Below, one piece after another: positions 1 to 62,995 of a stretch of 64,000 nt of DNA (positions within the stretch are counted from its first letter, which is position 1; each line of letters begins with the position of its first letter). The notes below the pieces were generated by a model. It was not told the origin of the DNA and did no database searches. It saw nothing but the letters and a program-made list of their open reading frames with translations. Both the position numbers and the translations under genes were made by a program. This DNA is from Verrucomicrobium sp. GAS474. Lineage in GTDB: Bacteria > Verrucomicrobiota > Verrucomicrobiia > Methylacidiphilales > GAS474. Location: assembly GCF_900105685.1 (NCBI RefSeq), contig NZ_LT629781.1:620001-684000 (forward strand). Reading direction: 5' to 3'.

Positions 1-1
1 C

Positions 2-250: not shown

Positions 251-261
251 GGGGGGGAGCT

Positions 262-520
262 GCCCTTCGGGGCTTGCGCGGTCGACCCTGTACAGCTGGA
301 GGCGACCCGCTTTATAGCCCAAGAGGGGCTTTGCCCCTCCTCGAACCTCCCCTTCGGAGGGCCTTAGCTAGGCGGACGCGTTTTGGCGGCGCCTCGTCTC
401 CTAACTGGATTAAAATCGGATGGTTCCGGTACGCCCGAGGGTACGTACTGAAGGGGGAGCAGTACCCATACGCCCAGACTCCTATCGGGAGAGGAACGCT
501 TGGGACGAATCACGCGTCCG
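262..520 (+). repeat. Long intergenic repeat, copy 1 (type A)
   Basis: First of six long copies. Landmarks in order are GCCCTTCGGG, CCCTGTACAGCTGGAGGC, CTTTATAGCCCAAGAGGGGC, a hairpin of GAGGGGC-type arms, CTCCCCTTCGGAGG, GGCGGACGCG, GGCGGCGCCTCGTCTCC, TAAAATC, CGCCCGAGGGTACGT, CGCCCAGACTCCTAT and a terminal ACGCTTGGGA...GCGTCC module. It fills nearly the whole gap between the 3' ends of ubiE and the secreted protein gene. No ribosome-binding site or conserved reading frame was found. It could be a non-autonomous mobile element, a transcribed 3'UTR module, or both. Confidence 0.9.
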
Positions 521-548
521 GGGGCCGGGGAACCGAAGGGGATTCAGC

Positions 549-1602: not shown

Positions 1603-3243
1603 ATGCCCGACACGCCCTCCGCCCTCCCCCGGCCCGTCGTCCTCGTCGTCGACGACGACGAGCCGACGCTCCTCCTCTTTTCCCGCAACCTGACGAAGAT
1701 CGGGTGCGAGGCCCATACCGCCGTCGGCGGGCGGGCCGCCCAGCAGTTCATGCAGGAGCGCGGGACCGCGGGCCTCGACTGCGTCATCACCGACTACCGC
1801 ATGCCCGGCGTCAGCGGCCTCGACCTCCTCCAGTGGATCCAGGACCGGGACGACACGCTGGCGACCATCGTCGTCACCGCCGAGGGGGAGAAATCGCTCA
1901 TCGCCGCCAGCCTCCGCGGCGGGGCCGTCGATTTCCTCGAGAAGCCGGTCTCCCGCGAGCAGCTCGGCAAGTCGATCCGCGCCGCGGCGGAGACGACGAC
2001 GGAGCGCCGCCGCGCGCGGTCGAACGAGGAGGCGATCCGCGAGGTCAGCCGCCTCCAGAGCCACCTCCTCGGCCCCGCCTACTCCCCCGAGCAGCACGGG
2101 CGGCCCCCGGCCGAGATCGTCATCCACACGCGGAGCGACGTCGGCGGCGACTTCTCCACCCACATCCCGACCGACGACGGGCGGCACGTCTTCTTCTGCG
2201 GCGACGTCTCCGGGCACGACCTCAAGGCGGGCTTCGTCTCCGCCTACTTCCAGGGCGTCGTCCGCGCCCTCGCCGCCCAGGGGACGCCGATCAAGGAAAT
2301 CGCCCACACCTTCAACGACATGCTGCTCCGCGAGTGGAGCCGCCCGGCCAGCGACGGCATCGGCGTCGGCTTCTCCCTCGCCTGCACCTTCCTCGTCACC
2401 GATCCGAAGCGGCGGGAATACCTCCTCCACAACTACGGCTTCCCCCCCGCCACGTGGAGCGACGCCGCCGGGCGGCTGACCTCGATCGCCGACCTCCGCC
2501 CGCCCCTCGGCTGGTTCGACGCCCTCGACCCGAACGAGACCCGCCTCCCCCTCGACACCCCCGCCGGCGATCCCGCCCTCCACAGCCTCTGCCTCTACAG
2601 CGACGGCCTGGAGGACCTCGCCGAGGCCCTCGACGTCGACCCCCGCTGCCTCCTCCACCGCCTCCTCAACCCGAAGCTCGAGGTCGAGAACAAGGAGCTG
2701 ATCCGCCGGGGCCACGACGACATCCTCATCCTCCGCACCTCCCCCCCCGACATCGCCGATCCCTTCTTCCCTCTCCTCCTGGAGCACCACGCCGGGGACC
2801 GCGCCGCCGACATCGACCTCCTCCAGAAACGGTGGGAACGGAGCCTCGCCCTTGCCCTCGGCACCCTCCCCAAGGGCCGCCTCGGGGACATCCTCCTCTG
2901 CTGCCGGGAAATGGTCCTCAACGCCATGAAACACGGCTCCCAGGGGCGGAAGGAGAGCCTCAGCTCCCTCCACATCGCCTGGCAGCCCCGGCCCCCCGCC
3001 GCCGCTTCCGGCGCGGCCTCCGCCCCCCTCTCCCCCGCCCGCGAGGGGGGCCGCCTCCGCCTCCGGGTGGAGGACACCGGTGCCGGCCACAACTTCGACA
3101 TCCACCGCCGCATCGAAGAGCTTGATCAATTGCGGGAAAAGCATCTAGGCTTGAGCATGGTCCGCCTTTTGTGCGACCGAATGACCATGGAACGCCAGGG
3201 GGCTATCCTCATCCTCGACTTCGACATCGACCCCACACCCTGA
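1603..3243 (+). CDS. Receiver - PP2C phosphatase - ATPase fusion (RsbU/RsbW type)
   Basis: 546 residues in three parts. Residues ~10-130 are a response-regulator receiver with an acidic DDDE cluster and the phospho-acceptor Asp in ITDYRMPG near 63. Residues ~165-385 are a PP2C/SpoIIE phosphatase with GGDFS and FCGDVSGHD metal-binding motifs. Residues ~405-545 resemble a GHKL ATPase, with MVLNAMKHG (N box) and VEDTGAGHN (G1 box). By family logic a phosphorylated receiver would drive dephosphorylation of an anti-sigma-factor antagonist, and the ATPase domain could be the opposing kinase. The STAS protein starting 1 bp after the stop is the obvious substrate. Phosphatase and kinase-like domains in one chain are less common than separate RsbU and RsbW. 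Confidence 0.9.
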   Translation: MPDTPSALPRPVVLVVDDDEPTLLLFSRNLTKIGCEAHTAVGGRAAQQFMQERGTAGLDCVITDYRMPGVSGLDLLQWIQDRDDTLATIVVTAEGEKSLIAASLRGGAVDFLEKPVSREQLGKSIRAAAETTTERRRARSNEEAIREVSRLQSHLLGPAYSPEQHGRPPAEIVIHTRSDVGGDFSTHIPTDDGRHVFFCGDVSGHDLKAGFVSAYFQGVVRALAAQGTPIKEIAHTFNDMLLREWSRPASDGIGVGFSLACTFLVTDPKRREYLLHNYGFPPATWSDAAGRLTSIADLRPPLGWFDALDPNETRLPLDTPAGDPALHSLCLYSDGLEDLAEALDVDPRCLLHRLLNPKLEVENKELIRRGHDDILILRTSPPDIADPFFPLLLEHHAGDRAADIDLLQKRWERSLALALGTLPKGRLGDILLCCREMVLNAMKHGSQGRKESLSSLHIAWQPRPPAAASGAASAPLSPAREGGRLRLRVEDTGAGHNFDIHRRIEELDQLREKHLGLSMVRLLCDRMTMERQGAILILDFDIDPTP

Positions 3244-3244
3244 C

Positions 3245-3586
3245 ATGGCCTCCATCGTCCACACCCTCGACGCCGAGACGAAGACCCTCCGCATCGAGAT
3301 CGGCAACGACCTCCTGAGCACCACCTTCGACAAGATCGTCGCCGGGCTCGACAGCATCCTCACCAGCGACGAGGTGAAAAAGGGAACCTGGACCCTCCTC
3401 CTCCTCGACCTCACCCAGGCGAAGCTCATCGACTCGATGGGCCTCAACATCATCGTCAGCCTCATCAAGAAGGCCCAGGCCCACCCCGCGAAGATCGCCG
3501 CCCGGATCACCAGCCCGACAATCCACCGGACTTTCCTCTTCACCCGGCTGGAGAAGTACATGGAGATCGAACTGGTCGAGGCGTAG
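3245..3586 (+). CDS. STAS-domain anti-sigma factor antagonist
   Basis: A 113-residue single STAS domain. The segment LLDLTQAKLIDSMGLNIIV carries the usual Asp-Ser phosphorylation site (DSMGL) at the start of the central helix, as in SpoIIAA/RsbV. In such partner-switch systems the unphosphorylated form binds the anti-sigma kinase. The start codon lies one base after the upstream stop, so translation with the RsbU-like fusion is almost certainly coupled. No sigma factor gene is adjacent, so the output is unknown and may be protein-level control rather than a sigma factor. Confidence 0.9.
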   Translation: MASIVHTLDAETKTLRIEIGNDLLSTTFDKIVAGLDSILTSDEVKKGTWTLLLLDLTQAKLIDSMGLNIIVSLIKKAQAHPAKIAARITSPTIHRTFLFTRLEKYMEIELVEA

Positions 3587-3590
3587 GGGG

Positions 3591-3628
3591 GCGCTTGGGA
3601 GAGAGACGCTTGGGAGAACAACGCGTCC
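3591..3628 (+). repeat. Short CGCTTGGGA microrepeat, two units
   Basis: Two adjacent units, GCGCTTGGGAGAG and ACGCTTGGGAGAACAACG, followed by GCGTCC, lie between the STAS stop codon and repeat copy 2. The same unit forms the right-hand end of the long repeats and, in reverse, the tandem array at 18740-18845. It appears to be a module of the repeat family that can multiply on its own. Confidence 0.7.
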
Positions 3629-3648
3629 TCAGCGCCGTCTTTCGGAGA

Positions 3649-3908
3649 GCCCTTCGGGACTTGCGCGGTCAACCCTGTACAGCTGGAGGCGACCCGCTTT
3701 ATAGCCACAGAGGGGCTTCGCCCCTCCGTGACCTCCTGTTCTGAGGGCCTGAACTAGGCGGACGCGCTTGGGCGGCGCCTCGTCTCCGAACTGAATTAAA
3801 ATCCGCTGCTTCCCGGAGCGCCCGAGGGTACGTGCGATAGGGAGAGACGGGGGCAATACGCCCAGACTCCTATTGGGAGAGGGGCGCTTGGCAGATGAGG
3901 CGCGTCCG
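3649..3908 (+). repeat. Long intergenic repeat, copy 2 (type A)
   Basis: Full-length copy with all landmarks of copy 1, from GCCCTTCGGGAC through CTGTACAGCTGGAGGC and CTTTATAGCC to CAGACTCCTATTGGGAG and GGCGCTTGG...GCGTCC. Its central hairpin reads GAGGGGCTTCGCCCCTC. The gap of 426 bp between the STAS gene and acsA consists mainly of this element and the microrepeats. The last ~100 bp (3909-4012) must hold the acsA promoter; I see no strong consensus there. Confidence 0.9.
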
Positions 3909-4012
3909 AGTTTCGCCTCTTCCCTCTCAAATGCGGCCATCGCACTTATCGCACTTGAAGTACGGCCTCAACATTGATAAGGACAGTATCTCTCTTCCCC
4001 CTGATTTACCCT

Positions 4013-5998
4013 ATGCCCACCGCTAAAAAAGCTCCCGCCACGGCGAAAAAAGACGTTATCGCCATCGATTCCGTTCTGAAAGAAACGCGCGTTTTCAAGC
4101 CCTCCCGCAAGCACCTCGGGGAGACGCTGATCAAGGACCTCGCCGCCTACAAGAAGCTCCACAAGCAGTCCCTCTCGAATCCCGAGAGCTTCTGGAAGAA
4201 TCAGGCGAAGAACCTCGCGTGGGTGAAGCCGTTCAAGAAAGTCCTCGAGTGGAAGAGCCCCCATGCGAAGTGGTTCACCGGCGGCAAGATCAACGTCGCC
4301 GCCAACTGCGTCGACCGCCACCTCGAGACCCCCCGCCGCAACCAGGCCGCGATCATCTGGGAAGGCGAGCCCGGCGAAGTCGTCACCCTCACCTACCAGC
4401 AGCTTCACCGCCAGGTCTGCCTCTTCGCCAACGTCCTGAAGAAACACGGCATCGCCGCCGGGGACCGCGTCGTCATCTACCTCCCGATGATCCCCGAGGC
4501 GATCGTCGCCATGCTCGCCTGCGCCCGCATCGGCGCGGTCCACAACGTCGTCTTCGGCGGCTTCAGCTCCGAATCGCTGAAGGACCGGAGCAACGACTCG
4601 GGCGCGAAGCTCATCATCACCGCCGACGGCGGCTACCGCCGCGGCGCGGTCGTCCCGCTGAAGGAGAACGTCGACAAGGCCCTCGCCAACGGCGGCGCCC
4701 CCGGCGTGAAGACCGTCCTCGTCGTCCGCCGCACCGGCCAGCCCGTCACGGTCGAGGCCGGGCGCGACCTCTGGATCCACGAGGAGACGGCGAAGGTCTC
4801 CGACGTCTGCCCCGCCGTCGGCTTCGACAGCGAGCACCCCCTCTTCATCCTCTACACCAGCGGCAGCACCGGGAAGCCGAAGGGGATCCTCCACACCAGC
4901 GCGGGCTACCTCCTCGGCGCGCAGCTGACGACGAAGTACGCCTTCGACCTCCGCCCCGCCGACATCTTCTTCTGCACCGCCGACATCGGCTGGATCACCG
5001 GCCACAGCTACGTCACCTACGGCATCCTCGCCAACGGCGGCACCACCTTCATGTACGAGGGCGCGCCGAACCAGCCGAACCCCGACCGGTTCTGGGAGCT
5101 GATCGCGAAGCACAAGGTGAACATCCTCTACACCGCGCCGACGGCGATCCGCTCCTTCATCAAGTGGGGCGACCACTGGCCCGCGAAGCACGACCTCTCC
5201 TCCCTCCGCATCCTCGGCAGCGTCGGCGAGCCGATCAATCCCGAGGCCTGGGTCTGGTACCACGACAAGATCGGCGGCAAGCGGTGCCCCATCGTCGACA
5301 CCTGGTGGCAGACGGAGACCGGCTCCCACATGATCCTCACCCTCCCCGGCCTCGACATGAAGCCGGGCGGCGCGGGCCTCCCGTTCTTCGGCGTCGATGC
5401 CGCGATCGTCGACGACAACGGCAAGGAAGTGAAGGTCGGCGCGGGCAAGCTCATCCTCCGCCAGCCGTGGCCCTCGATGCTCCGCACCGTCTACGGCGAC
5501 GACCAGCGCTACAAGGACGCCTACTGGGGCGACATCAAGGGCGCGTACACGACCGGCGACGGCGCGCACAAGGACAAGGACGGCTACTTCTGGATCATCG
5601 GCCGCATCGACGACGTCCTGAACGTCGCGGGCCACCGCCTCGGCACCTCCGAGGTGGAGAGCTCCCTCGTCAGCCACCCCCTCGTCGCCGAGGCCGCCGT
5701 CGTCGGCCGCCCCGACGAGCTGAAGGGCCAGGCCGTCGTCGCCTTCGTCACCCTCAAGGGCGGCAACGCCTCCTCCCCCGAGGTCGCCGAGCAGCTCCGC
5801 AAGCACGTCGCCAAGGAGATCGGCCCCATCGCGAAGCCCGACGAGATCCGATTCGCCGACGCCCTCCCGAAGACCCGCAGCGGCAAGATCATGCGCCGCC
5901 TCCTCCGGCAGGTCGCCGCCGGCGACGAGATCAAGGGCGACGTCACGACGCTGGAAGACCTCACCGTCCTGGCGAAGCTGAAGGGGATCGAGGACTAA
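4013..5998 (+). CDS. acsA: Acetyl-CoA synthetase (acetate-CoA ligase, AMP-forming)
   Basis: Activates acetate to acetyl-CoA through acetyl-AMP. The 661 residues match the usual ~650. Family motifs are in order: the phosphate-binding loop [11 protein letters not shown] near 280, [10 protein letters not shown], the WWQTETGS nucleotide-binding motif near 430, and the C-terminal [12 protein letters not shown] with the catalytic Lys (about 625) that is acetylated in homologues. I chose the ATG at 4013 over the in-frame TTG at 3974 because the extra 13 residues are not typical. The N-terminal [11 protein letters not shown] stretch is an unusual basic addition. A strong terminator follows, so it is probably a single-gene unit. 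Confidence 0.95.
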
Positions 5999-6015
5999 GT
6001 CCTCTTCCTTGCGCC

Positions 6016-6049
6016 AAAAACCCCCGGCTCTTCGGAGCCGGGGGTTTTT
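6016..6049 (+). terminator. Rho-independent terminator after acsA
   Basis: AAAAACCCCCGGCTC, loop TTCG, GAGCCGGGGGTTTTT: a perfect GC-rich stem with a T run, 17 bp after the acsA stop. The A run on the other side makes it potentially active in both directions, but no minus-strand gene ends here. Confidence 0.95.
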
Positions 6050-6147
6050 GTGCCGCGAGAGGGGCTCCCTTTTTCCCCAAGCCCCCCCTTGAGTCCCCCC
6101 CAGGTTCTGATACAGTCACTCCCCGTTGCCGCTTCGTCGGCGACACC

Positions 6148-7887
6148 ATGCAAATCGACCCGATCGAAAACGAGTTCCAGAGCGCCCATCCCTGGCGGAC
6201 CCTTGTCCGCCTCTATTGGCCCGAGCGCCGCTCCGTCCTCCTCGTCATCTGCCTCTACGTCGTCAAGGCGAGCGCGATCTGGATCCTCCCGATCGTCACG
6301 GCGAACATCATCGACATCGTCGCCCATCCCGGGCCGAAGGCGGCGGCCTCCCTCTGGATCAACATCACGGTCGGCGCCGTCGCCGTCGTCCAGAACATCC
6401 TCACCCACGTCCTCTGGGCCGACCACCTGAGCCGCTCGATCCGCAACGTCGAGATCCGGCTCCGCTCCGCCCTCGTCCGCCGCTTCCAGACCCTCTCCAT
6501 CGGCTACCACAGCAGCATCGAGAGCGGCGTCCTCCAGACGAAGGTGCTGCGGGACATCGAGTCGGTGGAGCAGCTCGTCCGGGCGATGGCCGACGGCTTC
6601 CTCGGCTCGATCATCAGCATCGTCGTCGCCATCGCCGTGACCGCGGTCCGGATGCCCCTCTTCGTCCCCGTCTTCATGCTCTGCGTCCCGATCATCCTGG
6701 TCACGCGCCGCCTCGTCTCGGCCCGCCTCCAGTCCCACAACGCGGCGATGCGGCGGGAGCTGGAGGCGATGAACTCGATGGTCATCGGGATGATCTCGAT
6801 GATCCCGATCACCCGCGCCCACGCCGTCGAGGAGACCGAGATCGCCAAGGCGACCACCCGCTTCCAGGCCGTCCGGGCCGTCGCCCGCTCCTTCGACCGG
6901 ATCACGGCGTTCTTCGGCGCCTCGATGTGGGTCGTCCTCATGCTCTGCAACCTCAGCGGCATCTCCCTCGCCGCCTACCTCGCCATCCGGGGCGTCGTCC
7001 ACCTCTCGCCGGGGGACATCGCCCTCCTCGCGGGCTACTTCGCCACGATCATGAACTCGGTCCTCGGCCTGGTGAACCTCCTGCCGATCCTCACCCGGGG
7101 CTTCGACGCGCTGGAGAGCATCGGCGAGATCGTCCAGTGCCCCGACATCGAGGAGAATCGCGGGAAGGTCGCCGTCGCCGCCGTGAAGGGGGCCTTCCGC
7201 TTCGAGGGTGTCGGCTTCCATTACCGCGGCGGCGAGGAGAAGCCGGCCCCCGCCCTCGACGGCATCACCCTCGAGATCGCCCCCGGGGAGACCGTCGGCA
7301 TCGTCGGCCCCAGCGGTTCCGGGAAGTCGACCCTCGCCAGCCTCGTCACCGGCTTCCACCGGCCGACCGAGGGGCGGATCGTCCTCGACGGCGTCGACAT
7401 GGCCGGGATCGATTTCCGGACCTTCCGCCGCCACCTCGCCGTCGTCAGCCAGCAGACGATCCTCTTCGACGGCACGGTCCGGGAGAACATCGTCTACGGC
7501 ACCCCCGACGTCACCGACGCGGCGCTCCAGGAGGCCGTCCGCGCCGCCAACGCCTCCGGCTTCGTCGCCGACCTCCCGAAGGGCCTCGACACCCTCCTCG
7601 GCGCGGGCGGCATCCAGCTGAGCGGCGGGCAGCGGCAGCGGCTCTCCATCGCCCGGGCCCTCCTGCGGAACCCGCGCGTCCTGATCCTCGACGAGGCGAC
7701 GAGCGCCCTCGACATCGAGGGCGAGGCCCTGGTCCAGCAGGCCCTGGAGCGGCTGATGAAGGGGCGGACGACCTTCGTCATCGCCCATCGCTCCGGGACG
7801 CTGCGGCACGCGAACCGGATCGTCTTCCTCGAAAAGGGGCGGATCGTCCGGATCGGGACCTTCGCCGACCTGGAAGCGGTCCATTAG
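6148..7887 (+). CDS. ABC exporter, fused permease and ATPase
   Basis: 579 residues in the half-transporter layout. Six membrane segments lie within residues ~25-310, followed by an ATPase from ~345 with Walker A GPSGSGKST, signature LSGGQRQRLS, Walker B VLILDEATSALD and the switch His in VIAHR. Such type-I exporters work as homodimers in the inner membrane, using ATP to export lipids, peptides or drugs; the substrate cannot be read from the sequence. The in-frame open reading extends far upstream across acsA, but the ATG at 6148 follows the acsA terminator and begins a plausible N-terminus (MQIDPIENEF). It stands alone. Confidence 0.93.
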   Translation: MQIDPIENEFQSAHPWRTLVRLYWPERRSVLLVICLYVVKASAIWILPIVTANIIDIVAHPGPKAAASLWINITVGAVAVVQNILTHVLWADHLSRSIRNVEIRLRSALVRRFQTLSIGYHSSIESGVLQTKVLRDIESVEQLVRAMADGFLGSIISIVVAIAVTAVRMPLFVPVFMLCVPIILVTRRLVSARLQSHNAAMRRELEAMNSMVIGMISMIPITRAHAVEETEIAKATTRFQAVRAVARSFDRITAFFGASMWVVLMLCNLSGISLAAYLAIRGVVHLSPGDIALLAGYFATIMNSVLGLVNLLPILTRGFDALESIGEIVQCPDIEENRGKVAVAAVKGAFRFEGVGFHYRGGEEKPAPALDGITLEIAPGETVGIVGPSGSGKSTLASLVTGFHRPTEGRIVLDGVDMAGIDFRTFRRHLAVVSQQTILFDGTVRENIVYGTPDVTDAALQEAVRAANASGFVADLPKGLDTLLGAGGIQLSGGQRQRLSIARALLRNPRVLILDEATSALDIEGEALVQQALERLMKGRTTFVIAHRSGTLRHANRIVFLEKGRIVRIGTFADLEAVH

Positions 7888-7988
7888 CGCCTTCCCCGCC
7901 GCTTTCCGCCCCGCTCCATTCCCCCCGCAATTATATCTGTAGGGATTTCGGGGGAGTGTGGTAAAAGTTCACCCCGCTGTTCCCGCCC

Positions 7989-8282
7989 ATGTCCAAAGAC
8001 TATTACAAGCATCTCGGCCTTCCCCGCACCGCCACCGAGGCGGAGATCAAGTCGGCCTACCGCCGCCTGGCCAATGCCCATCACCCGGACAAGAACGGCG
8101 ATCCGGCCCTCTTCCTCGCGATCAACGAGGCCTACGGCATCCTCGGCGACGCCGCGAAGAAGAAGGCCTACGACGAGAGCCAGAGCGTCGCCCTCGTCAC
8201 GAACCTCGACGAGGTCGCGATGACGGTCATCGAGGACTACTTCAGCCAATTCCAGCAGCCCCCCCACCCCACGCACGAATGA
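7989..8282 (+). CDS. J-domain protein (short DnaJ-like)
   Basis: 97 residues, nearly all J domain: DYYKHLGLPRTATEAEIKSAYRR, the invariant HPD motif in AHHPDKNGD near residue 34, then a final helix YGILGDAAKKKAYD. It lacks the G/F, zinc-finger and C-terminal substrate-binding parts of true DnaJ, so it is probably a specialised co-chaperone that recruits an Hsp70 to one client. Its stop overlaps the next start (ATGA), which points to the following protein as a partner. The C-terminal tail FSQFQQPPHPTHE has no known match. Confidence 0.92.
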   Translation: MSKDYYKHLGLPRTATEAEIKSAYRRLANAHHPDKNGDPALFLAINEAYGILGDAAKKKAYDESQSVALVTNLDEVAMTVIEDYFSQFQQPPHPTHE

Positions 8283-8689
8283 ATTATCAAGAGCAGTTCG
8301 ACCAGATGGTCGAATACGTCGGCAGCTACTTCGCCCGCGAGAAGACCGAGAACATGGCCCGCCGCGAGTTCCTCCGCGAGCGCGAGGAACTCCTCCGCAG
8401 CGTCCCCTCGATCGACGCCGAGACCCTCGGCACGAACCCCTACTACGCCGCCATCGGCTTCCTCGGCTTCATCCGCTTCACCGAGGGGCCGGAGCTGAAG
8501 GACTTCGACATCCTCCCCTCGCCGACGGCCCTCGCCGCGCTGCGCCAATCGGGCGGCGTCACCATGGAGAAGAGCGCCGTCCCCGTCTGGATCTTCCTGG
8601 AGAAGAACCATCCCGACGCCGCCCTCGCCGCCGTCGTCCTCGCCTCGATGGGCCGCAAGAACGAGACGATCAAGAAAGCCCTCAAATAG
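8279..8689 (+). CDS. Hypothetical protein coupled to the J-domain gene
   Basis: 136 residues starting at the ATG that overlaps the J-protein stop codon. Charged and helical at the N-terminus (YQEQFDQMVEYVGSYFAREK, then a Glu/Arg-rich segment), followed by NPYYAAIGFLGFIRF. There is no signal peptide, membrane span or catalytic motif. No family is recognised. The translational overlap suggests one complex or one pathway with the J-domain protein. Confidence 0.8.
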   Translation: MNYQEQFDQMVEYVGSYFAREKTENMARREFLREREELLRSVPSIDAETLGTNPYYAAIGFLGFIRFTEGPELKDFDILPSPTALAALRQSGGVTMEKSAVPVWIFLEKNHPDAALAAVVLASMGRKNETIKKALK

Positions 8690-8743
8690 AGGGTCCCAGG
8701 AATTCCCGCAGCCCCCTCACCCCACCCCGAAGCCCCCCTTCCC

Positions 8744-9490
8744 ATGAGCGATCCCGCCAATCCCAACGCCAGCGCCCTCTACATCCGCACCGTCCTGAAA
8801 TCGTCGGGCGCGAAGGCGACCGAGACCGCCCTGGCCACCATCGGGGCCGACCACGGCGACGAGCAGCTGGCCGTGATCGTCGGGGAGCTGACCCCCGGCG
8901 AGGTCAGCCAGATCCTCAGCGCCTCCGACTACACGAAGCCCTCCATCGCCACCCACTTCATCACCGCCGAGCAGCTCCTCGGCGTCCTGGAGCGGATCGG
9001 CGGCGAGTGGGGCTCGCTGAAGGGATCGACGATCAACGTCCTCGTCTCCCTCCGGCGCGACATCAGCGACCGGCTCCTCCCCGTCGTCCTCCTCGCCGAC
9101 GCCCCGCAGAAGGCCGCCCTCCTCGACGGGCTGCTGAAGAACACCCTCTCGCGGAACCTCATCACCGCCCTCCCCCTCTACGAGACCGAATGCCCGGAGT
9201 TCTTCACCGAATTCGAGCCGAGCGCCGCGCAGCAGGGGACCTGGCAGGAACTCTACGCCGAGATCCACCACCACTCCGCCGCCGAGTTCGACAAGCTGAA
9301 GCGGGCGATCCTCGGCCTCCTCACCAAGCACGGCGAGGGCCCGGGCGAGGAGGACGAAGTCCTCGCCGAGACCAAGGAATCGGAAGCCTTCCTGATGCGC
9401 GCCCTCCAGACCCTCTCCGACCGCGCCGCGAAGATCGTCGAGGCGAATCCCGAGGAGAAGAAGGCCCCCGGCGTCTTCGACCGCTTCTGA
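8744..9490 (+). CDS. Hypothetical protein
   Basis: 248 residues, soluble, mostly helical and acidic. Segments such as YIRTVLKSSGAKATETALATI and ITAEQLLGVLERIGGEW suggest helical repeats. The ending PGVFDRF is a short hydrophobic tail. No known motif is seen. It begins 54 bp after the preceding unknown gene in the same direction. A weak internal resemblance to the next protein exists only in composition. Confidence 0.8.
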   Translation: MSDPANPNASALYIRTVLKSSGAKATETALATIGADHGDEQLAVIVGELTPGEVSQILSASDYTKPSIATHFITAEQLLGVLERIGGEWGSLKGSTINVLVSLRRDISDRLLPVVLLADAPQKAALLDGLLKNTLSRNLITALPLYETECPEFFTEFEPSAAQQGTWQELYAEIHHHSAAEFDKLKRAILGLLTKHGEGPGEEDEVLAETKESEAFLMRALQTLSDRAAKIVEANPEEKKAPGVFDRF

Positions 9491-9513
9491 AAATCACCGC
9501 TTCCCGCCCTCCC

Positions 9514-10467
9514 TTGCCCACCAAGCCTTCCTCCCCGAACGCGAACGCCCTGGCGACGCGCGAGACCGGCCTCCCGGTCACTGTGGCCCTCGACCACGCC
9601 TTCAAGGCGGGGCTGATCCCGGTCACCCTCGCCGCCCTCCGCAAGGAGGAGCTGCGCGACATCGTGAAGGACGCCGCGAAGAAATTCGTCGGCTTCCAGA
9701 ACGTCGAGTCGATCCGCAAGGCGTTGGAGATCGTCCTCGGCATCCTCTCCCTCGCCGTCGCCGCCTCGACGAAGGGGGAGACCGATCCCGAGGCGTGGGC
9801 GCAGTACGTCGCCTCCCACGGCTTCGCCGACCTCGTCGGGAAGGCAATCGGCCTCGTCGACCTGGTCCACCAGGACAAAGACGGCCCGGGCGCGAACTAC
9901 AACTACGTCTTCGAGAACGACAAGCCGACGGCGGCCGTCCGCGACATGCTGCTGAAGTTCGCGGGCGCGCGGACGAAGGACCGCTGGACCGGCTATGCGT
10001 CCTACGTCCACGACCGCGACGTCGCCCACCAGAAGCAGGCCGAGGACCGGCTGATGCGGTGGCTCGTCGCCCGGCTCCTCAACGAGAGCCGCCCGCTCAC
10101 CTCGCTCTATCCGCCGATCGAGGAGGCCGACTCGGCCGACATCGTGATCAACACCCTCCTCTTCCGCCACGCCGCCGACCTCGGCTTCGGCGCCGGCCGG
10201 GAGAAGGCGATCCAGCTCCGCAAGGCCGACTTCCTGGCCGTGCGGAAGAAATACACCGCCGCCCCCGCCGCGTGGAAGAAAGCCGCCGCGAAGCGCTACG
10301 ACACCCTCCTCGCCACGATCCCCGAAACCCTCCTCCCCGGCCTCGGCGACGGCAAGTGGTTCGCCGAAGTCCTGAAGAAAGGCCCCCCCGCCCTGAGCGC
10401 CAAGACCGACATGGTCGAGACCATCGACTCGATCACGGGGATCTATTATTACGACGTCCTGGGGTAG
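9514..10467 (+). CDS. Hypothetical protein
   Basis: 317 residues from a TTG start at 9514, 23 bp after the upstream stop; no in-frame ATG lies near enough, and the TTG gives MPTKPSSPN before the first ordered segment. The protein is helical and soluble: VALDHAFKAGLIPVTLAALRK, then a central VHDRDVAHQKQAEDRLMRW, ending GIYYYDVLG. No family recognised. Last gene of the J-domain cluster; repeat copy B1 begins 14 bp after its stop in the same direction. Confidence 0.78.
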   Translation: MPTKPSSPNANALATRETGLPVTVALDHAFKAGLIPVTLAALRKEELRDIVKDAAKKFVGFQNVESIRKALEIVLGILSLAVAASTKGETDPEAWAQYVASHGFADLVGKAIGLVDLVHQDKDGPGANYNYVFENDKPTAAVRDMLLKFAGARTKDRWTGYASYVHDRDVAHQKQAEDRLMRWLVARLLNESRPLTSLYPPIEEADSADIVINTLLFRHAADLGFGAGREKAIQLRKADFLAVRKKYTAAPAAWKKAAAKRYDTLLATIPETLLPGLGDGKWFAEVLKKGPPALSAKTDMVETIDSITGIYYYDVLG

Positions 10468-10481
10468 CGGGGGGAAGGGCG

Positions 10482-10630
10482 GCCCTTCGGGACGGGGTAC
10501 ATCTCCCTGTACAGGTGGATGCAACCCGCGCGTTTAGAGATGCAAGAGGGGGCTGCGCCCCTCCTGCACCTCCCCCTCGGATAGGCCGTGATGTAGATAA
10601 GGCCCTATCCAAGAGGCATCTCTCCCATCA
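10482..10630 (+). repeat. Short diverged repeat, copy B1 (type B)
   Basis: Begins GCCCTTCGGGACGGGG and keeps the family landmarks CCCTGTACAGGTGGATGC, ACCCGCGCGTTTAGAG and the GAGGGGGCTGCGCCCCTC hairpin. It then diverges from type A, with a new stem GGATAGG/CCTATCC. It lies between convergent genes (the J-cluster and the beta-galactosidase), 14 bp after the former's stop. The remaining ~90 bp to the lacZ stop shows no clear terminator. Confidence 0.75.
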
Positions 10631-10717
10631 GTCCGCTCTACTCCGCTGAATCTAACCTCCTTGAGGGCCGAGGCCTGGGAAGGAGCATCCGAGGAGCAAT
10701 CCTCTCCCCCCGGGGCT

Positions 10718-13999
<3,282 letters not shown>

Positions 14000-14896
14000 A
14001 TGCCTGGAAAAATACAATTCTGGGAAGGCGATATTCAGATCCGGTTGGCGGCGGAGAGCCGCTATTCCTCGGCCCGCACCTTCTATTGGCACCGCCATTC
14101 CTTCTACGAGATCGGCCTCGTCCTGAGCGGCACCTGCACGTGGCGGCTCGGCCCCCGGTCGGGCGCGCGGACGCGGACAGTCGTCTCCGCGGGAGAGGCG
14201 ATCCTCCTCCCGCCCGAGGCGTGGCATGGAGAAGAGATCGCCGCCGGGCAGGAGGCCCGGATCGCCTGGATCGGCTTCGATTGCCCCGCCCCGCCGCCCG
14301 CGTGGATGGGGCGCCCCGTCGCCCTCCGCGACGATGCCGCCGAAATCGCCCAGGCATGCCGCGCCATCTACCGGGAACACAGCCGCCCCGGGAACGGCCC
14401 CCGCATCCGCCTGGCGATCCAGACGCTGCTCCTCCTTACGGCCCGGCAGGCGGAGACCGGAAACGAGGCCGAGGGAGGGCACCCCGCCGGCGGGAACGAA
14501 GCCGGGAGCGGAGAGGCATCGGGGCTCAACCCGCGCCAGCTCCGCTGCGTCGAGGCGGCGGCCCACACCCTCCGGGAGAACCTGACCTCGCGGCTGACGA
14601 TCGCCCAGGTCGCCACCTTCCACTCCCTCTCCCCCGCCCATTTCTCGACCCTCTTCCGCCGCCGCTACGGCACCTCCCCGCGCGCCTTCCTCCGCCGCGC
14701 CCGCGTCGACAAGGCCGAGGCGCTCCTCGCCGCCTCCGACCTCTCGGTCAAGGAAGTCGCCGCCCTCACCGGCTTCGCCGACGCGCCCCACCTGTGCAAG
14801 ACGTTCCGCTCGCTCCGGGCGCGGACCCCGGGGAAGGGGCGTTCTTCGCAAAAGATTCGCGAAGGGCTCCCCCCACCCCCCGCAAGAAATCGTTAG
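14000..14896 (+). CDS. AraC-family transcriptional regulator
   Basis: 298 residues. The N-terminal part is a cupin-like sensor (WHRHSFYEIGLVLSGTC, then EAILLPPEAWH), typical of sugar-sensing AraC regulators. The C-terminal ~100 residues hold the two helix-turn-helix units: SRLTIAQVATFHSLSPAHF and DLSVKEVAALTGFADAPHL. A linker of ~40 residues rich in Gly and Glu separates them. Divergent orientation from lacZ suggests it controls galactoside use. The ATG at 14000 has only a weak purine-rich ribosome site. Ligand unknown. Confidence 0.92.
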   Translation: MPGKIQFWEGDIQIRLAAESRYSSARTFYWHRHSFYEIGLVLSGTCTWRLGPRSGARTRTVVSAGEAILLPPEAWHGEEIAAGQEARIAWIGFDCPAPPPAWMGRPVALRDDAAEIAQACRAIYREHSRPGNGPRIRLAIQTLLLLTARQAETGNEAEGGHPAGGNEAGSGEASGLNPRQLRCVEAAAHTLRENLTSRLTIAQVATFHSLSPAHFSTLFRRRYGTSPRAFLRRARVDKAEALLAASDLSVKEVAALTGFADAPHLCKTFRSLRARTPGKGRSSQKIREGLPPPPARNR

Positions 14897-14956
14897 GAAG
14901 GTCCCCGTTTTGGGTTTAGGTTCCGGTGTGTCCCATCAGTCCTTTTCATCGCAGGC

Positions 14957-15853
14957 ATGAATCTCTTGCCTCCCAAACTCACCGTCCGGGTCGGCTGCTC
15001 CATCCGCTATCAATGCGCGTTGCCGACGCCGATGATCCTCGTCCTCCGGCCCTGGCGGGATGAGAATCAATTCATCCGGCAGGAGCGCTTCTCCGTCAGC
15101 CCCGGCGTCGCCACCCAGGAGTACAACGACATCCACGGGAACCTCGCCTGCCGCACCATCATGCAGCCGGGGGAAAACACCGTCAGCCACGACGCCCTCG
15201 TCGACATCTCCCCGGAGCCCGACAACCTCGGCCACCAGTGGTTCGCCCTCCCCGTCGACCAGCTCCCTACCGACGTCCTCCGCTACATCCTCCCGAGCCG
15301 CTATTGCGACTCGGACAAGCTCCTCGACTTCGCCTGGCAGCAGTTCGGCCAGACCCCGAACGGGATCGACCGGGTCTACGCGATCTGCAACTGGCTCCAC
15401 GCGAACATCGAGTACCGCTGGGGCGGGGGGAGCCCGAACATCTCCGCCTCGGAAGTCATCGCGCAACGCTTCGGCGTCTGCCGGGACTTCGCCCACACCG
15501 GGATCGCCCTCTGCCGCGCCTTCAACATGCCGGCCCGCTACATCGTCGGCCACCTCCCCGACATCGGCCACATCGACCCCGGCACCCCGATGGATTACCA
15601 CGCCTACTTCGAGGTCTACCTCGGCGGCCGGTGGTGCACCTTCGACGCCCGGTTCAACGAGCCCCGGATCGGCCGCATCAAGGTCGCCCAGGGCCTCGAC
15701 GCCGTCGACGGCGCCTTCTCCACCTGCTACGGCCAGGCCATCCTGGCGTGGTTCAACGTCTGGGCCTACCAGGTGAACCCGAACGAAGTCTCGGTCGGCG
15801 ATCCGATCGACCTGAGCAAGCGCCTCGACGGCGACCTCCTCGTGCGGCGCTGA
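14957..15853 (+). CDS. Transglutaminase-like cysteine protease family protein
   Basis: 298 residues. An N-terminal beta domain (Bact_transglu_N type, to ~110) precedes a transglutaminase core. The catalytic triad is visible: Cys in RFGVCRDFAHTG, His in MDYHAYFEVYL and Asp in CTFDARFNEPR. There is no signal peptide, so it is probably cytoplasmic. Such proteins act as peptidases or amidases, often of unknown substrate. It lies after the AraC gene with a 60-bp gap and may be separate. Confidence 0.9.
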   Translation: MNLLPPKLTVRVGCSIRYQCALPTPMILVLRPWRDENQFIRQERFSVSPGVATQEYNDIHGNLACRTIMQPGENTVSHDALVDISPEPDNLGHQWFALPVDQLPTDVLRYILPSRYCDSDKLLDFAWQQFGQTPNGIDRVYAICNWLHANIEYRWGGGSPNISASEVIAQRFGVCRDFAHTGIALCRAFNMPARYIVGHLPDIGHIDPGTPMDYHAYFEVYLGGRWCTFDARFNEPRIGRIKVAQGLDAVDGAFSTCYGQAILAWFNVWAYQVNPNEVSVGDPIDLSKRLDGDLLVRR

Positions 15854-15952
15854 AGCCGCCCCCGGGAGGCCTTGCCCGCCGCGCTCCGAATTGACGCGCC
15901 CCCCGGGGCCTGCCATGCTGAAGCCCGGCCCCAGGCCTTCCCCATTCCCGCC

Positions 15953-16501
15953 ATGAACCCCCGCTTCACCTTCCTCGCCTCCCTCGTCCTCGCCGCCGCC
16001 GCGCTGCGGGTGATCCCCCATCCCGCCAACTTCACCCCCGTCGCCGCCATCGCCCTCTTCGCCGGGGCCCGCTTCGCCGACCGGCGGATGGCCTTCCTCG
16101 TCCCCCTCGCCGCGATGGCCCTCAGCGACCTCGTCCTGAACCTCCGCTCCCCCAACCTCGCCCTCGCCCTGACGATCCTCCCCATCGTCTACGCCGCCTT
16201 CGCCCTCACCGTCGTCCTCGGCTTCCTCCTGCGGGGCCGGTCGAACGCCCTCGCCATCGCCGGGACCGGCGTCCTCGCCTCGGTCCTCTTCTTCGGCGTG
16301 ACGAACCTCGGCGTCTGGGCCGTCGGCGGCATCTACCCGCACACCGCCACGGGCCTCGCCGACTGCTACGCCGCCGCGATTCCCTTCTATCGCAACGGCC
16401 TCCTCGGCACCCTCTTCTTCTCCGCCGTCCTCTTCGGCGGCTTCGCCCTCGCCGAGCGCCGCTTCGAGGGGCTCCGCGAGCCGCGGCCCGTCGCGGCCTA
16501 G
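15953..16501 (+). CDS. Small integral membrane protein (DUF6580 / ECF S-component-like)
   Basis: 182 residues with about five hydrophobic helices. The N-terminal phrase NFTPVAAIALFAGARF and the later IYPHTATGLADCYAAAIPFYRN are characteristic of the DUF6580 family, whose fold resembles the S-components of ECF vitamin transporters. The substrate is unknown. The upstream in-frame extension to 15872 is not typical, so I start at the ATG at 15953. The next gene begins 10 bp after its stop, so the two form an operon. Confidence 0.8.
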   Translation: MNPRFTFLASLVLAAAALRVIPHPANFTPVAAIALFAGARFADRRMAFLVPLAAMALSDLVLNLRSPNLALALTILPIVYAAFALTVVLGFLLRGRSNALAIAGTGVLASVLFFGVTNLGVWAVGGIYPHTATGLADCYAAAIPFYRNGLLGTLFFSAVLFGGFALAERRFEGLREPRPVAA

Positions 16502-16511
16502 GGCTTCCCCC

Positions 16512-17177
16512 ATGTCGGCGGCCGTGCTCTGGACCGGGGGGAAGGACTCGGTCCTCGCCCTTCATGAAGCACGTGCAGCGCGGCAGGCGGGCCAAGCTGA
16601 CGCGGACGCCGTCTCCCTCCTGGTCACCTTCGCCCCGCCGGAAGGGGAGTTCCTCGCCCATCCCCTCCCCGTCCTCGCCGCCCAGGCGGCCTCCCTCGGC
16701 CTTCCCCACCGTGTGGTCCCCATCGAGGGGACCGACTACGCCGCCCGCTACGAGGAAGCCCTGCACGCCCTGCGCGGGGAAGGGATCGCGACCGTCATCA
16801 CCGGCGACATCGCCGAGGTCGGCGGCCAGCCGAACTGGATCGAGGCGCGGTGCCGCGCCCTGCGCGAGGCGGGCCGTCCCGCCCCCGTCCTCCGTCGCCC
16901 CCTCTGGGGGCGCGACCGGGAAGCCCTGCTCCGCGCCCTCCTCGCCGCCCGGTTCGAGGTCCGCTTCTCCCACGTGAAGGCCCCGTGGTTCACCCCGGAG
17001 TGGCACGGCCGCCCGCTCGACGCCGCCGCCGTCGAGGCCCTGAAGGCGATCCGCGCCGATCCCCGCCTCGCCCCGCCCCTCGACCTTTGCGGCGAGGAGG
17101 GCGAGTATCACACCCTCGTCGTCGACGGCCCCGGTTTCGCCCGGCCCGTCGCTTTCCCCTCCCGCGCAGGGACTTGA
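16512..17177 (+). CDS. Dph6-type ATP pyrophosphatase (diphthine-ammonia-ligase-like)
   Basis: 221 residues. The N-terminal PP-loop is WTGGKDSVLAL, and the C-terminal GEEGEYHTLV is the conserved motif of the Dph6/adenine-nucleotide alpha-hydrolase family. The archaeal/eukaryotic enzyme amidates diphthine, but bacteria lack diphthamide, so the bacterial substrate is unknown; a cofactor role such as B12-related amidation is only inference. It sits 10 bp after a putative transporter S-component, which fits salvage or modification of a small molecule. Confidence 0.85.
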   Translation: MSAAVLWTGGKDSVLALHEARAARQAGQADADAVSLLVTFAPPEGEFLAHPLPVLAAQAASLGLPHRVVPIEGTDYAARYEEALHALRGEGIATVITGDIAEVGGQPNWIEARCRALREAGRPAPVLRRPLWGRDREALLRALLAARFEVRFSHVKAPWFTPEWHGRPLDAAAVEALKAIRADPRLAPPLDLCGEEGEYHTLVVDGPGFARPVAFPSRAGT

Positions 17178-17243
17178 CGCCTCCCCGAAAGAGGGCATAC
17201 TTTACTTTCCAATACCGGAAAGAACCGAAAAGCCCTGTCCCCT

Positions 17244-17513
17244 ATGTCGCTCGATACCATGATTGAAGTTGAAGGAAAGATCACCACGATCCTTCCCGGC
17301 ACCATGTTCCGCGTCGAGTTGGACAACGGCCACGTCGTCCTCGCCCACATTTCCGGCAAGATGCGGAAGCACTTCGTCCGCCTCACCCATGGCGACCGCG
17401 TGAAGCTCGAGATGTCCCCCCACGACCTCGACAAGGCGCGCATCCTCTTCCGCCTCGATCGTCCCGTCGACGGCAGCCTCCCCCGCCGCCGCCCGCAGCA
17501 TCGCCGCCGCTAG
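17244..17513 (+). CDS. infA: Translation initiation factor IF-1
   Basis: Binds the 30S A site during initiation. The core [23 protein letters not shown]...[16 protein letters not shown] is the standard OB-fold. The protein is 89 residues, longer than the usual 71-72, because of an added Arg-rich tail (RRRPQHRRR) that could touch rRNA. The core lacks only the first few residues of typical IF-1, with MSLDT in their place. It is not next to ribosomal protein genes, as it often is elsewhere. Confidence 0.93.
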
Positions 17514-17546
17514 GGCCGCGACCCGAGTCCCTCCCCCCTTTCCGCC

Positions 17547-18038
17547 ATGCCGTCCTTCGACGTCGTCTCCGAAGTCAACCAGGACGAGGTGCAGAACGCC
17601 CTCAACCAGGCCAACAAGGAAATCACCACCCGCTTCGACTTCAAGGACGCCGGTGCCGAGATCGTCCAGGAAAAGAACGACATCAAGCTCCGCGCCGTCA
17701 ACGCCTTCAAGTTGAAGGCCCTCGCCGAGATCGTCCTCGGCAAGCTCGCCAAGCGCGGCGTCAGCCTGAAGAACATCGAGCAGAAGGAGCCCGACATCTC
17801 CTCCACCGGCAAGGCCTCCCAGACCCTCGTGATCAAGCAGGGCTTCGAGGGCGACACCGCGAAGATCATCGTCGCCGCCGCGAAGGCGACGAAGCTCAAG
17901 ATCCAGGCCCAGATCCAGGGGACCGACGTCCGCGTCACCGGCAAGAACCGGGACGACCTCCAGGAAGTGATGGCCGCCCTCCGCGCCGGGGTCGACGACT
18001 TCCCCGTCGCCATCGGGTTCAAGAACTTCCGCGACTAG
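17547..18038 (+). CDS. yajQ: YajQ-family nucleotide-binding protein
   Basis: 163 residues, the usual family length, beginning PSFDVVSEVNQDEVQNALN and containing TRFDFKDAGAEI and the ending PVAIGFKNFRD, all diagnostic of YajQ (UPF0234). Members of this family bind cyclic di-GMP in some species and act through a transcription factor partner; whether this one does is not shown. It is 33 bp after infA and 6 bp before the EVE gene, forming a short run. Confidence 0.95.
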   Translation: MPSFDVVSEVNQDEVQNALNQANKEITTRFDFKDAGAEIVQEKNDIKLRAVNAFKLKALAEIVLGKLAKRGVSLKNIEQKEPDISSTGKASQTLVIKQGFEGDTAKIIVAAAKATKLKIQAQIQGTDVRVTGKNRDDLQEVMAALRAGVDDFPVAIGFKNFRD

Positions 18039-18044
18039 ACCGCC

Positions 18045-18452: not shown

Positions 18453-18477
18453 GGGGTCGCGCAGGGGCTTTTTTTCC

Positions 18478-18705
18478 CGATAGGAGTCAGGGCGTATTGG
18501 CCCCGTCTCTCCCTATCGCTCGTACCCTCGGGCGCTCAGGGAAGCAGCGGATTTTAATCCAGTTCGGAGACAAGGCGCCGCCAAAGCGCGTCCGCCTAGT
18601 TAAGGCCCTCCGAAGGGGAGGTTCGAGGAGGGGCGGAGCCCCTCTTGGGCTATAAAGCGGGTCGCCTCCAGCTGTACAGGGTTGACCGCGCAGGTCCCGA
18701 AGGGC
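18478..18705 (-). repeat. Long intergenic repeat, copy 3 (type A, reversed)
   Basis: Reverse copy. Reading the minus strand it starts GCCCTTCGGGACCTGCGC and runs through CTGTACAGCTGGAGGC, CTTTATAGCC, AAGAGGGGCTCCGCCCCTC and TAAAATCCGCTGCTTCC, ending CTGACTCCTATCGGG without the microrepeat module. It is separated from copy 4 by a tandem microrepeat array, the two copies facing each other head to head. Confidence 0.9.
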
Positions 18706-18739
18706 TGCCCCGCTCGGTGGCGTTACCCAGCGTGGGTCT

Positions 18740-18845: not shown

Positions 18846-18902
18846 CAAACGGAACGCTTGGGAGACAAGGCGCACGGGGAAAGGGATCGCGGAACGGGAA
18901 CC

Positions 18903-19129
18903 GCCCTTCGGGACTTGCGCGGTCAACCCGGTACAGCTGGAGGCGATCCGCTTTATAGCCCAAGAGGGGCTTCGCCCCTCCTCGAACCTCCCCTTCGGAG
19001 GGCCTCAACTAGGCGGACGCGCTTTGGCGGCGCCTCGTCTCCTAACTGGATAAAAATCCGCTGCTTCCCTGAGCGCCCGAGGGTACGTGCGATAGGGAGA
19101 GGGCCGCTTGGGAAGAATGATGCGTCCGC
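18903..19129 (+). repeat. Long intergenic repeat, copy 4 (type A, internally shortened)
   Basis: Forward copy starting GCCCTTCGGGACTTGCGC. It lacks the ~35 bp that in copies 1, 2 and 6 lies between GATAGGGAGA and GGGAGAGG (the part holding CAGACTCCTAT), consistent with a deletion between those two similar stretches. Its right end runs into, and supplies the last codons and stop of, the minus-strand TIM-barrel gene. Confidence 0.88.
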
Positions 19130-25591: not shown

Positions 25592-25835
25592 CCCAAGCGC
25601 CCCTCTCCCGATAGGAGTCAGGGCGTATGGGTACCGTCTCCCCCCGCAATACGTACCCTCGGGCGTACCGGAACCATCCGATTTTAATCCAGTTCGGAGA
25701 CGAGGCGCCGCCAAAGCACGTCCGCCTAGCTAAGGCCCTCCGAAGGGGAGGTTCCAGGAGGGGCAAAGCCCCTCTTGGGCTATAAAGCGGATCGCCTCCA
25801 CCTGTACAGGGTCGACCCCGCCAGCCCCAAAGGGC
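25592..25835 (-). repeat. Long intergenic repeat, copy 5 (type A, reversed)
   Basis: Reverse copy filling almost all of the gap between two converging genes. On the minus strand it begins GCCCTTTGGGGCTGGCGG and contains CTGTACAGGTGGAGGC, CTTTATAGCCCAAGAGGGGC, TAAAATCGGATGGTTCC, CAGGG-type variants of the CTCCTATCGGGAG segment and the GGCGCTTGGGG module. Its left end is 21 bp from the stop codon of the beta-lactamase gene, which reads into it. The TGGTTCCGGTACGCC variant is shared with copy 1. Confidence 0.9.
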
Positions 25836-44024: not shown

Positions 44025-44166
44025 GCACTATTTTACACCCTTTCTCCCAGCCTTTGGAAGCGTAGTTCCTCCCAAGCGGACAGGGGATCTAGCGGACGCG
44101 CTCTACCCGAAGCGGACGGCCTAATGCGGTACCGCTCCAAATAGTTCAGGCCTATCAGAGGGGGAC

Positions 44167-44304
44167 TGCCGTCGCGGTAGCGACACTCGTTTCCCAGGGG
44201 AGACTAACTTGCAGGGCCGGGAGGCAAGTGCAGGAGGGGCGCAATGCCGTCGCGATAGCGACACTCGTTCTCAGGGGAAACTAACTCGCATGGCCGGGGG
44301 GCAA
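44167..44304 (+). repeat. Pair of ~60-bp direct repeats with GTCGC hairpins
   Basis: Two copies (44167-44227 and 44245-44304) share TGCCGTCGCGGTAGCGACAC / TGCCGTCGCGATAGCGACAC, then CAGGGGA-ACTAACT and GGCCGGG-GGCAA. Each holds a small perfect hairpin GTCGC-GGTA/GATA-GCGAC. The mismatch lies in the loop, so the stem is kept. They are directly next to the type B repeat and may be part of it. The rest of the 397-bp gap holds no gene. Confidence 0.8.
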
Positions 44305-44373
44305 CCCCTCTTGCATCTTTAAACGCGCGTCCGGCCTCCACCTGTACAGGGTCTGTACCCCGTCCCGAAGGGC
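44297..44373 (-). repeat. Short diverged repeat, copy B2 (type B, reversed)
   Basis: On the minus strand it reads GCCCTTCGGGACGGGGTACA, CCCTGTACAGGTGGAGGC, GCGCGTTTAAAGATGCAAG and AGGGG. The GGACGGGGTAC and GATGCAAGAGGGG features are shared with copy B1 but not with type A. It lies before the cupin gene, not after a gene reading into it, so it is an exception to the 3'-end pattern. Confidence 0.72.
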
Positions 44374-62551: not shown

Positions 62552-62764
62552 ACATTCACTCCGGAAAAGAGGTGTTACTCAATTAAACGCCCCATTGGAA
62601 GACGAAAGCGCCCTCGGGCAGTTTTTATGGGGGGGAGGAGTTGCGCTATCACGCAGGCCATCACCCCGCCTTGAACCTCTTCCATAAGAGTACGGTAGGG
62701 GAAACGGCTACCTCCAGCCCAAGGCTCGGCTCCTTCGGAGAGAGGCACGCTTCCATCGATACAT
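62552..62764. other. Intergenic region before the TolC gene
   Basis: The 465-bp gap between the TolC start and the chromate transporter stop holds repeat copy 6 and this stretch. It contains ACTCAATTAAACG (possible promoter region of the efflux operon), a GGTAG/CTACC hairpin and a CTCC-TTCG-GGAG stem. No gene was found in it. Confidence 0.5.
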
Positions 62765-62995
62765 CTCCCAATAGGAGTCTGGGCGTCTTGGCCCCGTCTC
62801 CCCCTATCGCTCGTACCCTCGGACGCTCAGGGAAGCAGCCGATTTAATCCAGTGAGGAGACGAGGCGCCGCCAAAGCGCGTCCGCCTAGTTCAGGCCCTC
62901 CGAAGGGGAGGTTCCAGGAGGGGCAAAGCCCCTCTTGGGCTATAAAGCGGATCGCCTCCAGCTGTACCGGGTCGACCCCGCCAGCCCCAACGGGC
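62765..62995 (-). repeat. Long intergenic repeat, copy 6 (type A, reversed)
   Basis: Reverse copy. On the minus strand it begins GCCCGTTGGGGCTGGCGG, then CCGGTACAGCTGGAGGC, CTTTATAGCCCAAGAGGGGC, CTCCCCTTCGGAGG and the CAGACTCCTATTGGGAG end. The GGGCTGGCGGGGTCGACCC variant is shared with copy 5. Its left end is 22 bp from the stop codon of the chromate transporter gene reading into it. Confidence 0.9.

Follow-up and report, generated by a model that had tools for sequence, protein, structure and literature searches.

The ERIC/IRU, Correia/NEMIS, RUP and other MITE-like repeats are palindromic, intergenic sequences of about 100-250 bp that are often transcribed. According to the accessible part of one study, REPs are distributed at gene 3' ends, between convergent and unidirectional genes, form head-head and tail-tail heterodimers, in some cases supply a TAG stop codon, and are also known in a verrucomicrobium, Opitutus terrae (PMC3733652). 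Their evolution by gene conversion is an old suggestion, going by the title of a 1988 review cited there (PMC3733652). REPINs, in the accessible part of a second study, are non-autonomous sequences that persist as a population within one genome, modelled as mutation classes around a master sequence (PMC8049555).

Eight copies of a repeat were found within a 64-kb window of the genome of Verrucomicrobium sp. GAS474 (C1:620001-684000; the window is the whole stretch of 64,000 nucleotides analysed, with 67.5% G+C, in a genome made of a single contig of 3,763,444 bases). In a collection of named genomes, the nearest relatives of its CCA-adding enzyme, at best about 60% identical, come mainly from Methylacidiphilales and other Verrucomicrobiota, which places GAS474 in or next to that order. 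The family works like REP/BIME repeats: as in the GTAG and CGTC families covered by that partial account, its palindromic copies are dispersed between genes, lie at gene 3' ends with a preference for convergent and tandem sites, and form inverted heterodimers. However, the family did not qualify as a GTAG/CGTC REP, as its unit is about 210-300 bp long with several hairpins, whereas a REP is a single stem-loop of 20-40 bp, and by eye no conserved GTAG or CGTC tag was present at either end of the GAS474 consensus (a CGTC occurs inside the element and a GTAG inside family I of G002, a congeneric genome). Further differences were that no Y1/RAYT gene was detected in the GAS474 genome, unlike in GTAG-type REPs, and that the copies are near linkage equilibrium. 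REPINs, so far as that second account goes, are alike in being a persistent intragenomic population of non-autonomous sequences, but the present family has no evident master, few private mutations, free reassortment and no RAYT.

The ERIC/IRU, Correia/NEMIS, RUP and other MITE-like repeats are similar in length, palindromic nature and intergenic position, although neither terminal inverted repeats nor target duplications were shown in the GAS474 copies. Intrinsic terminators also place stable GC hairpins behind stop codons, but the copies have no T tract, occur in both orientations and in some cases lie behind true terminators. Rfam gave no matches in the window at gathering score, and lenient searches of two copies gave sub-threshold hits or none, and on this basis a known RNA family was rejected. 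In the limited open-access literature, some of it accessible in part, we found no description of this family, nor of linkage equilibrium in such repeats.

Copies in the window and their fold

The eight copies, and the hairpin H2 of the first of them, were located as follows.

251..504, plus strand: copy 1, A type, at a convergent site; its G-rich leader touches the ubiE stop (TAG at 248-250, then a G run), and the collinear site is empty in G001, a genome of the same genus
319..343, plus strand: hairpin H2 of copy 1, basal pairs followed by the stem GAGGGGC/GCCCCTC; the basal pairs covary across subfamilies
3649..3891, plus strand: copy 2, A2 type, tandem-sense, 3' of the STAS gene (3245-3586)
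10482..10690, plus strand: copy B1, B type, between the convergent gene 9514-10467 (plus) and a GH2 beta-galactosidase gene at 10718-13876 (minus)
18475..18705, minus strand: copy 3, A type, tail towards an EVE-domain gene (18045-18452), head-to-head with copy 4
18903..19101, plus strand: copy 4, A type with a truncated tail, running into the 3' end of gene 19042-20049 (minus)
25606..25835, minus strand: copy 5, A type, between the convergent CCA-adding enzyme gene 24222-25589 (plus) and a transpeptidase/beta-lactamase-like gene from 25857 (minus)
44050..44373, minus strand: copy 7, B type, at a divergent site, with a second short repeat inserted twice in its H2 region
62764..62995, minus strand: copy 6, A type, tandem-sense, 3' of the chromate transporter gene (63017-63544, minus)

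The unit, about 210-300 bp long, is non-coding and palindrome-rich and contains several hairpins. From its head it consists of a hairpin CCC-UUCG-GGG, the block CCTGTACAGSTGGAGGC, the hairpin H2 (GAGGGGC/GCCCCTC), middle hairpins and a tail with CTCCTATTGGGAG. The head decamer (GCCCTTCGGG) was uninformative by itself (20 matches at up to one mismatch vs 21.5 expected); the non-random part is the full repeat of 200-250 bp behind it, window copies being up to 95% alike over 199 nt.

A preliminary description of this DNA had placed the GCCCTTCGGG end, or a variant of it, 11-62 bp past a stop codon in five of the eight copies, and all five distances were correct: the stop and the head lie at 250 and 262 for ubiE, 3586 and 3649 for STAS, 10467 and 10482 for gene 9514-10467 and, on the minus strand, 25857 and 25835 for the transpeptidase/beta-lactamase-like gene and 63017 and 62995 for the chromate transporter. 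Pfam backed the STAS, transpeptidase/beta-lactamase-like and chromate transporter assignments and gave no match for gene 9514-10467; ubiE is putative. Copy B1 reaches further than position 10630, to about 10690.

The fold was assessed on an alignment of 29 head-to-H2 segments (six A copies of the window, six C and 11 B copies lying outside it in the GAS474 genome, and six of G002 family I). All three basal pairs of H2 were changed on both sides across subfamilies, with pairing in 97.6% of cells, and RNAalifold recovered the same hairpin. Over the whole proposed structure, 84.0% of cells paired vs 77.8% in shuffles, and the covariation score was 0.152 vs 0.067, a level that none of 500 shuffles reached. 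Pairs with double changes were about as many in this alignment as in shuffles (6 vs 5.6), and a proposed P1 stem was rejected because it failed across subfamilies (65% of cells paired). Single-sequence folding of two copies was not unusual against shuffles either (z of -0.73 and -1.19), so the structural claim rests on covariation of one hairpin: H2 is kept by compensatory changes.

Other repeats were seen in the window. The inserts in the H2 region of copy 7 lie within 44100-44330 and belong to another short repeat (GGCCATGCGAGTTAG...CGCGACGGCA); similar inserts are present in B copies at loci L054 and L061. The spacer 18706-18902 and other head-to-head spacers contain runs of a small repeat around CGCTTGGGAG / CGCATGGGAG (48 and 16 matches in 637 kb). 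A 300-nt direct repeat, 89% identical (48045-48344 and 52147-52446), and a 70-nt repeat, 99% identical (50538-50607 and 51871-51940), are both unrelated to the gene-end family.

Placement and orientation across the genome

Pattern searches of the whole genome gave 111 A/C matches, 34 B matches and two further C variants, about 147 copies, whereas control patterns read backward gave one match for A/C and none for B. The 146 copies that were located, with one of the 111 A/C matches left out, comprised 67 A, 21 A2 and 24 C copies (112 of A/C type) and 34 B copies. Genes were called only around copies, in about 2.6 kb of DNA on either side of each, with a home-made caller based on codon scores; in its training DNA, the window plus margins, it called 65 genes (86% coding).

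None of the 146 copy anchors fell inside a called gene. Of the 126 intergenic regions that the copies occupied, 107 held a single copy, 18 held two and one held three; 62 of the regions were convergent, 55 tandem and 9 divergent. A circular chromosome has as many convergent as divergent gene pairs, so 62 vs 9 (p = 7e-11) means strongly non-random placement. Convergent intergenic regions without a copy were tiny (median 24 nt). Tandem copies lay near the upstream stop codon either way round (median 36.5 nt with the head facing it, 38 nt with the tail) and at medians of 178 and 97 nt, respectively, from the next start. The placement rule is therefore 'behind a gene, away from starts', and not head towards the gene.

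The central claim of the preliminary description, a fixed orientation towards the upstream gene, was wrong. Three of its five supporting copies (1, B1 and 5) lie between convergent genes and only copies 2 and 6 are tandem-sense; the remaining three copies of the window are copies 3 and 4 (18475-18705 and 18903-19101), which stand head-to-head between convergent genes, and copy 7 (44050-44373), which lies between divergent genes. Since a convergent copy has both ends facing stop codons, orientation can be judged only at tandem sites, and a rule that can be reused for other repeats is to examine orientation bias there alone, because convergent sites satisfy it by construction. Single-copy regions were convergent in 55 cases, tandem sense in 22, tandem antisense in 23 and divergent in seven. 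The preliminary description had itself named equal numbers of both orientations across the genome as the outcome that would speak against it, and at the informative sites the two were equal (22 vs 23; binomial p = 1.0, 95% CI 0.34-0.64). When all copies were scored by their nearest genes, 30 were sense and 35 antisense (p = 0.62). What stood of the original observation was the placement, which is ordinary for REP-like repeats, together with the conclusion that either targeted insertion or selection must act, as gene 3' ends are far favoured over starts; the argument from orientation fails, and with it goes the tempting functional reading as a one-way 3'UTR element.

Among neighbouring copies, 17 of 20 pairs were inverted and mostly heterotypic, a mosaic of modules in inverted order like that of BIMEs, which recurs in G002, where families I and II are often joined tail to tail as I+II composites. 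Nine pairs were head-to-head, with gaps of 95-246 nt, and eight tail-to-tail, with gaps of 10-115 nt, every one of the latter joining a B copy with an A or C copy.

Copies were scarce at 2.25-3.25 Mb (6 of 146 vs 38.8 expected, p = 1e-12), a region that adjoins the switch in GC skew near 3.1-3.25 Mb. Gene context does not account for this scarcity, which counts against an explanation by tolerance of insertions. An orientation bias relative to replication is not claimed, since 83-86 of the 146 copies ran along the putative leading strand, with p between 0.04 and 0.12 depending on the origin chosen.

Junctions with stop codons and competing explanations

The sequence TAGGGG was present at the stop in 35 of the 57 heads lying within 40 nt of a stop codon, compared with 3 of 47 tails at that distance (p = 2e-9) and 8 of 329 unoccupied gene ends (p = 5e-27). 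The 40 nt upstream of the head were equally G-rich (50% G) with or without a gene reading into it; heads far from genes thus show that the G-rich leader, roughly AAGGGGGCGCG..., is part of the element. In gene-facing copies the junction is with the stop codon itself, an abutment of head and stop tighter than tolerance alone would predict, which is a further observation against tolerance as the explanation.

Between the same anchors, ubiE and its convergent neighbour, which are collinear in GAS474 and G001, are separated by about 380 nt in the former and about 100 in the latter, an empty site. The ubiE stop lies at the same place as in G002 and one codon earlier than in G001 (RK* in GAS474 and G002, RKG* in G001). 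The last codons and stop of gene 19042-20049 (window 19042-19101) are read from the truncated copy 4 (18903-19101), and the gene is without the final codons of its G002 orthologue, which ends differently. The two ends of the element are unlike in sequence by eye, and no target duplication was resolved at the one collinear empty site, that of ubiE.

The explanation we favour, at a probability of roughly 0.7, is a dispersed repeat of the REP/BIME kind that persists behind stop codons, where its insertion does least harm, with orientation neutral. Insertions at such places would spare coding sequence, starts and promoters, and most of them would lie between convergent genes, and selection against other sites, not the specificity of an enzyme, would make the placement. 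The copies would have been spread by a putative trans-acting machinery, and would be reshuffled by ectopic recombination, either gene conversion or template switching; the lack of a transposase candidate, Y1_Tnp being absent, counts against this explanation. Copies at 3' ends would be transcribed in both orientations and would add stable hairpins to mRNA 3' ends, where they may tune mRNA decay; as no common orientation exists, such tuning cannot explain one-way pointing.

The closest competitor, possible but clearly less probable, is that a putative enzyme sets the element at gene 3' ends, where the 5' end of the element (about AAGGGGGCGCG) is joined to the stop codon or inside it. The excess of TAGGGG at close heads over unoccupied gene ends fits this, as do the last codons and stop that gene 19042-20049 took from the element and the small size of empty convergent regions, when convergent regions are the most occupied. 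However, tails lie as near to stops as heads do and close tails are without the TAGGGG junction, the same G-rich leader is found at heads far from genes, so the motif is the element's own, and no target-site duplication was demonstrated. We consider it rather unlikely that copies are kept by selection for a 3'-end function that is itself neutral to orientation, with hairpins on both strands blocking read-through or exonucleases between convergent genes. Convergent sites make up 62 of the 71 occupied sites that are convergent or divergent, H2 pairing is kept by double changes and sites are partly common to G002, but the EVE and CCA gene ends in G001 abut their convergent neighbours without any detected copy (a gap of 4 nt and an overlap of 7 nt in the gene calls), 55 tandem and nine divergent regions are occupied too, and the element occurs in only 2 of 62 genomes of the order.

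Far less probable is a 3'UTR element that works in one orientation only, ending or stabilising the sense transcript, with its GCCCTTCGGG end necessarily facing the gene. Five of the eight window copies fit it, and so does the difference in TAGGGG abutment between close heads and close tails; the even split at single-copy tandem sites does not. The one-way role in ending transcripts that had been put forward was further weakened, since no terminator-like site was found inside the copies of window 1-19900, T5 or A5 runs on either strand were confined to 9 of the 146 copies, ordinary hairpin-plus-T-tract terminators already precede several of the head-facing copies, and no copy was detected in G001. 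Intrinsic termination was rejected because neither strand of the elements fits, with no T tract after a GC hairpin in the transcribed orientation, and a terminator that acts in one orientation is unlikely. Counted up to 60 nt from the stop, T5 runs were somewhat rarer when a copy followed (17 of 179 vs 17 of 104, p = 0.09), and the hairpins may modestly affect 3' ends whichever way a copy points. Chance or an artefact of gene calling, which might be feared from a home-made caller applied only around copies, is barely credible given the backward-read controls and the convergent excess.

Linkage among copies and relatives in other genomes

Linkage among the 112 A/C copies, measured over 43 biallelic columns, decayed from a mean r2 of 0.48 at 1-4 nt to 0.14 at 5-14, 0.07 at 15-29, 0.04 at 30-99 and 0.02 beyond, and a looser set of 68 columns gave the same decay. 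Nine blocks, eight of them multi-base, showed all four combinations in 32 of 36 block pairs, with 66 haplotypes in the 112 copies; as multi-base variants are hard to produce twice by point mutation, this speaks for reassortment. Over 172 columns, 72 of the 112 copies had no private base, while two had 13 and 33, and the mean pairwise difference was 24.5 columns (about 14%). Columns 66/67 and 87, the two sides of H2, stayed completely associated despite the general decay: the pair 67-87 was A-U in 72 copies and C-G in 40 with no exception, and the loop between was reassorted.

Beyond about 15 nt, therefore, the A/C copies are near linkage equilibrium and form a freely recombining intragenomic population. 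Such free reshuffling does not hold for every subfamily. In the 21 copies of the B1 subfamily linkage persists, with a mean r2 of about 0.3-0.5 at distances up to 100 nt, whereas 26 copies of G002 family II lose it, and since both received the same treatment the decay is not an artefact of the method. From these patterns we infer frequent ectopic exchange among copies, by conversion, template switching or exchange before insertion. Exchange restricted to neighbours was rejected, as identity did not fall with distance (0.865 under 2 kb vs 0.871 beyond 500 kb). More speculatively, and with considerable doubt on our part, the A/C copies could be a sexual-like population with a dedicated short-tract process that reassorts sites 15 nt apart between scattered copies, either template switching during copying through an RNA or ssDNA intermediate or ectopic conversion at very high frequency. 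Pairing in H2 would then be selected because the fold is read by the machinery for copying or insertion, and stop codons would be where new copies are joined. Swapping of pieces between copies is rarely documented for such repeats, and the linkage result makes the old gene-conversion idea for REPs measurable. With its stop-codon junctions and near linkage equilibrium, the family itself deserves more attention than the original observation.

In DNA and covariance-model searches of 60 and 62 genomes of the order, the element was found only in GAS474 and G002, with no copy detected in G001 (95% complete). Outside the order, a comparison of 80 named loci (645 kb) gave one weak match to copies. A phage or plasmid origin was set aside, as two exact patterns had no match in viral contigs and one A copy had none in plasmids. 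A RAYT/Y1 transposase was likewise rejected as the mobiliser because PF01797 (Y1_Tnp) was absent from the GAS474 genome at E <= 0.001, while five of the 14 control genomes contained it. Since GAS474 carries more than a hundred copies and a congeneric genome has many, the family is suited to finding a mobiliser other than RAYT.

Sites were compared through the G002 genes that lie near copies of family I or II. Of these 104 genes, 15 had orthologues within the sampled GAS474 DNA at minimum values of 60% identity and 50% cover. When the G002 gene had a copy at its 3' end, six of seven orthologues were occupied in GAS474, compared with none of the eight others (p = 0.0014, in a sample enriched for occupied sites). 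The end facing the gene agreed in two of the six common sites. This result hints at sites that are shared or were hit repeatedly, without proving it, and could mean function at set sites.

Rearrangement at copies is not claimed: by eye, in window 17-28.5 kb and at L092, the neighbours mostly differ in G001 and G002, but a divergent junction free of copies was also broken, and at ubiE the junction has stayed intact in G001. As a separate observation, gene neighbourhoods at occupied junctions often differ among GAS474, G001 and G002 (L304-L317, L324-L334), which might reflect recombination between copies.
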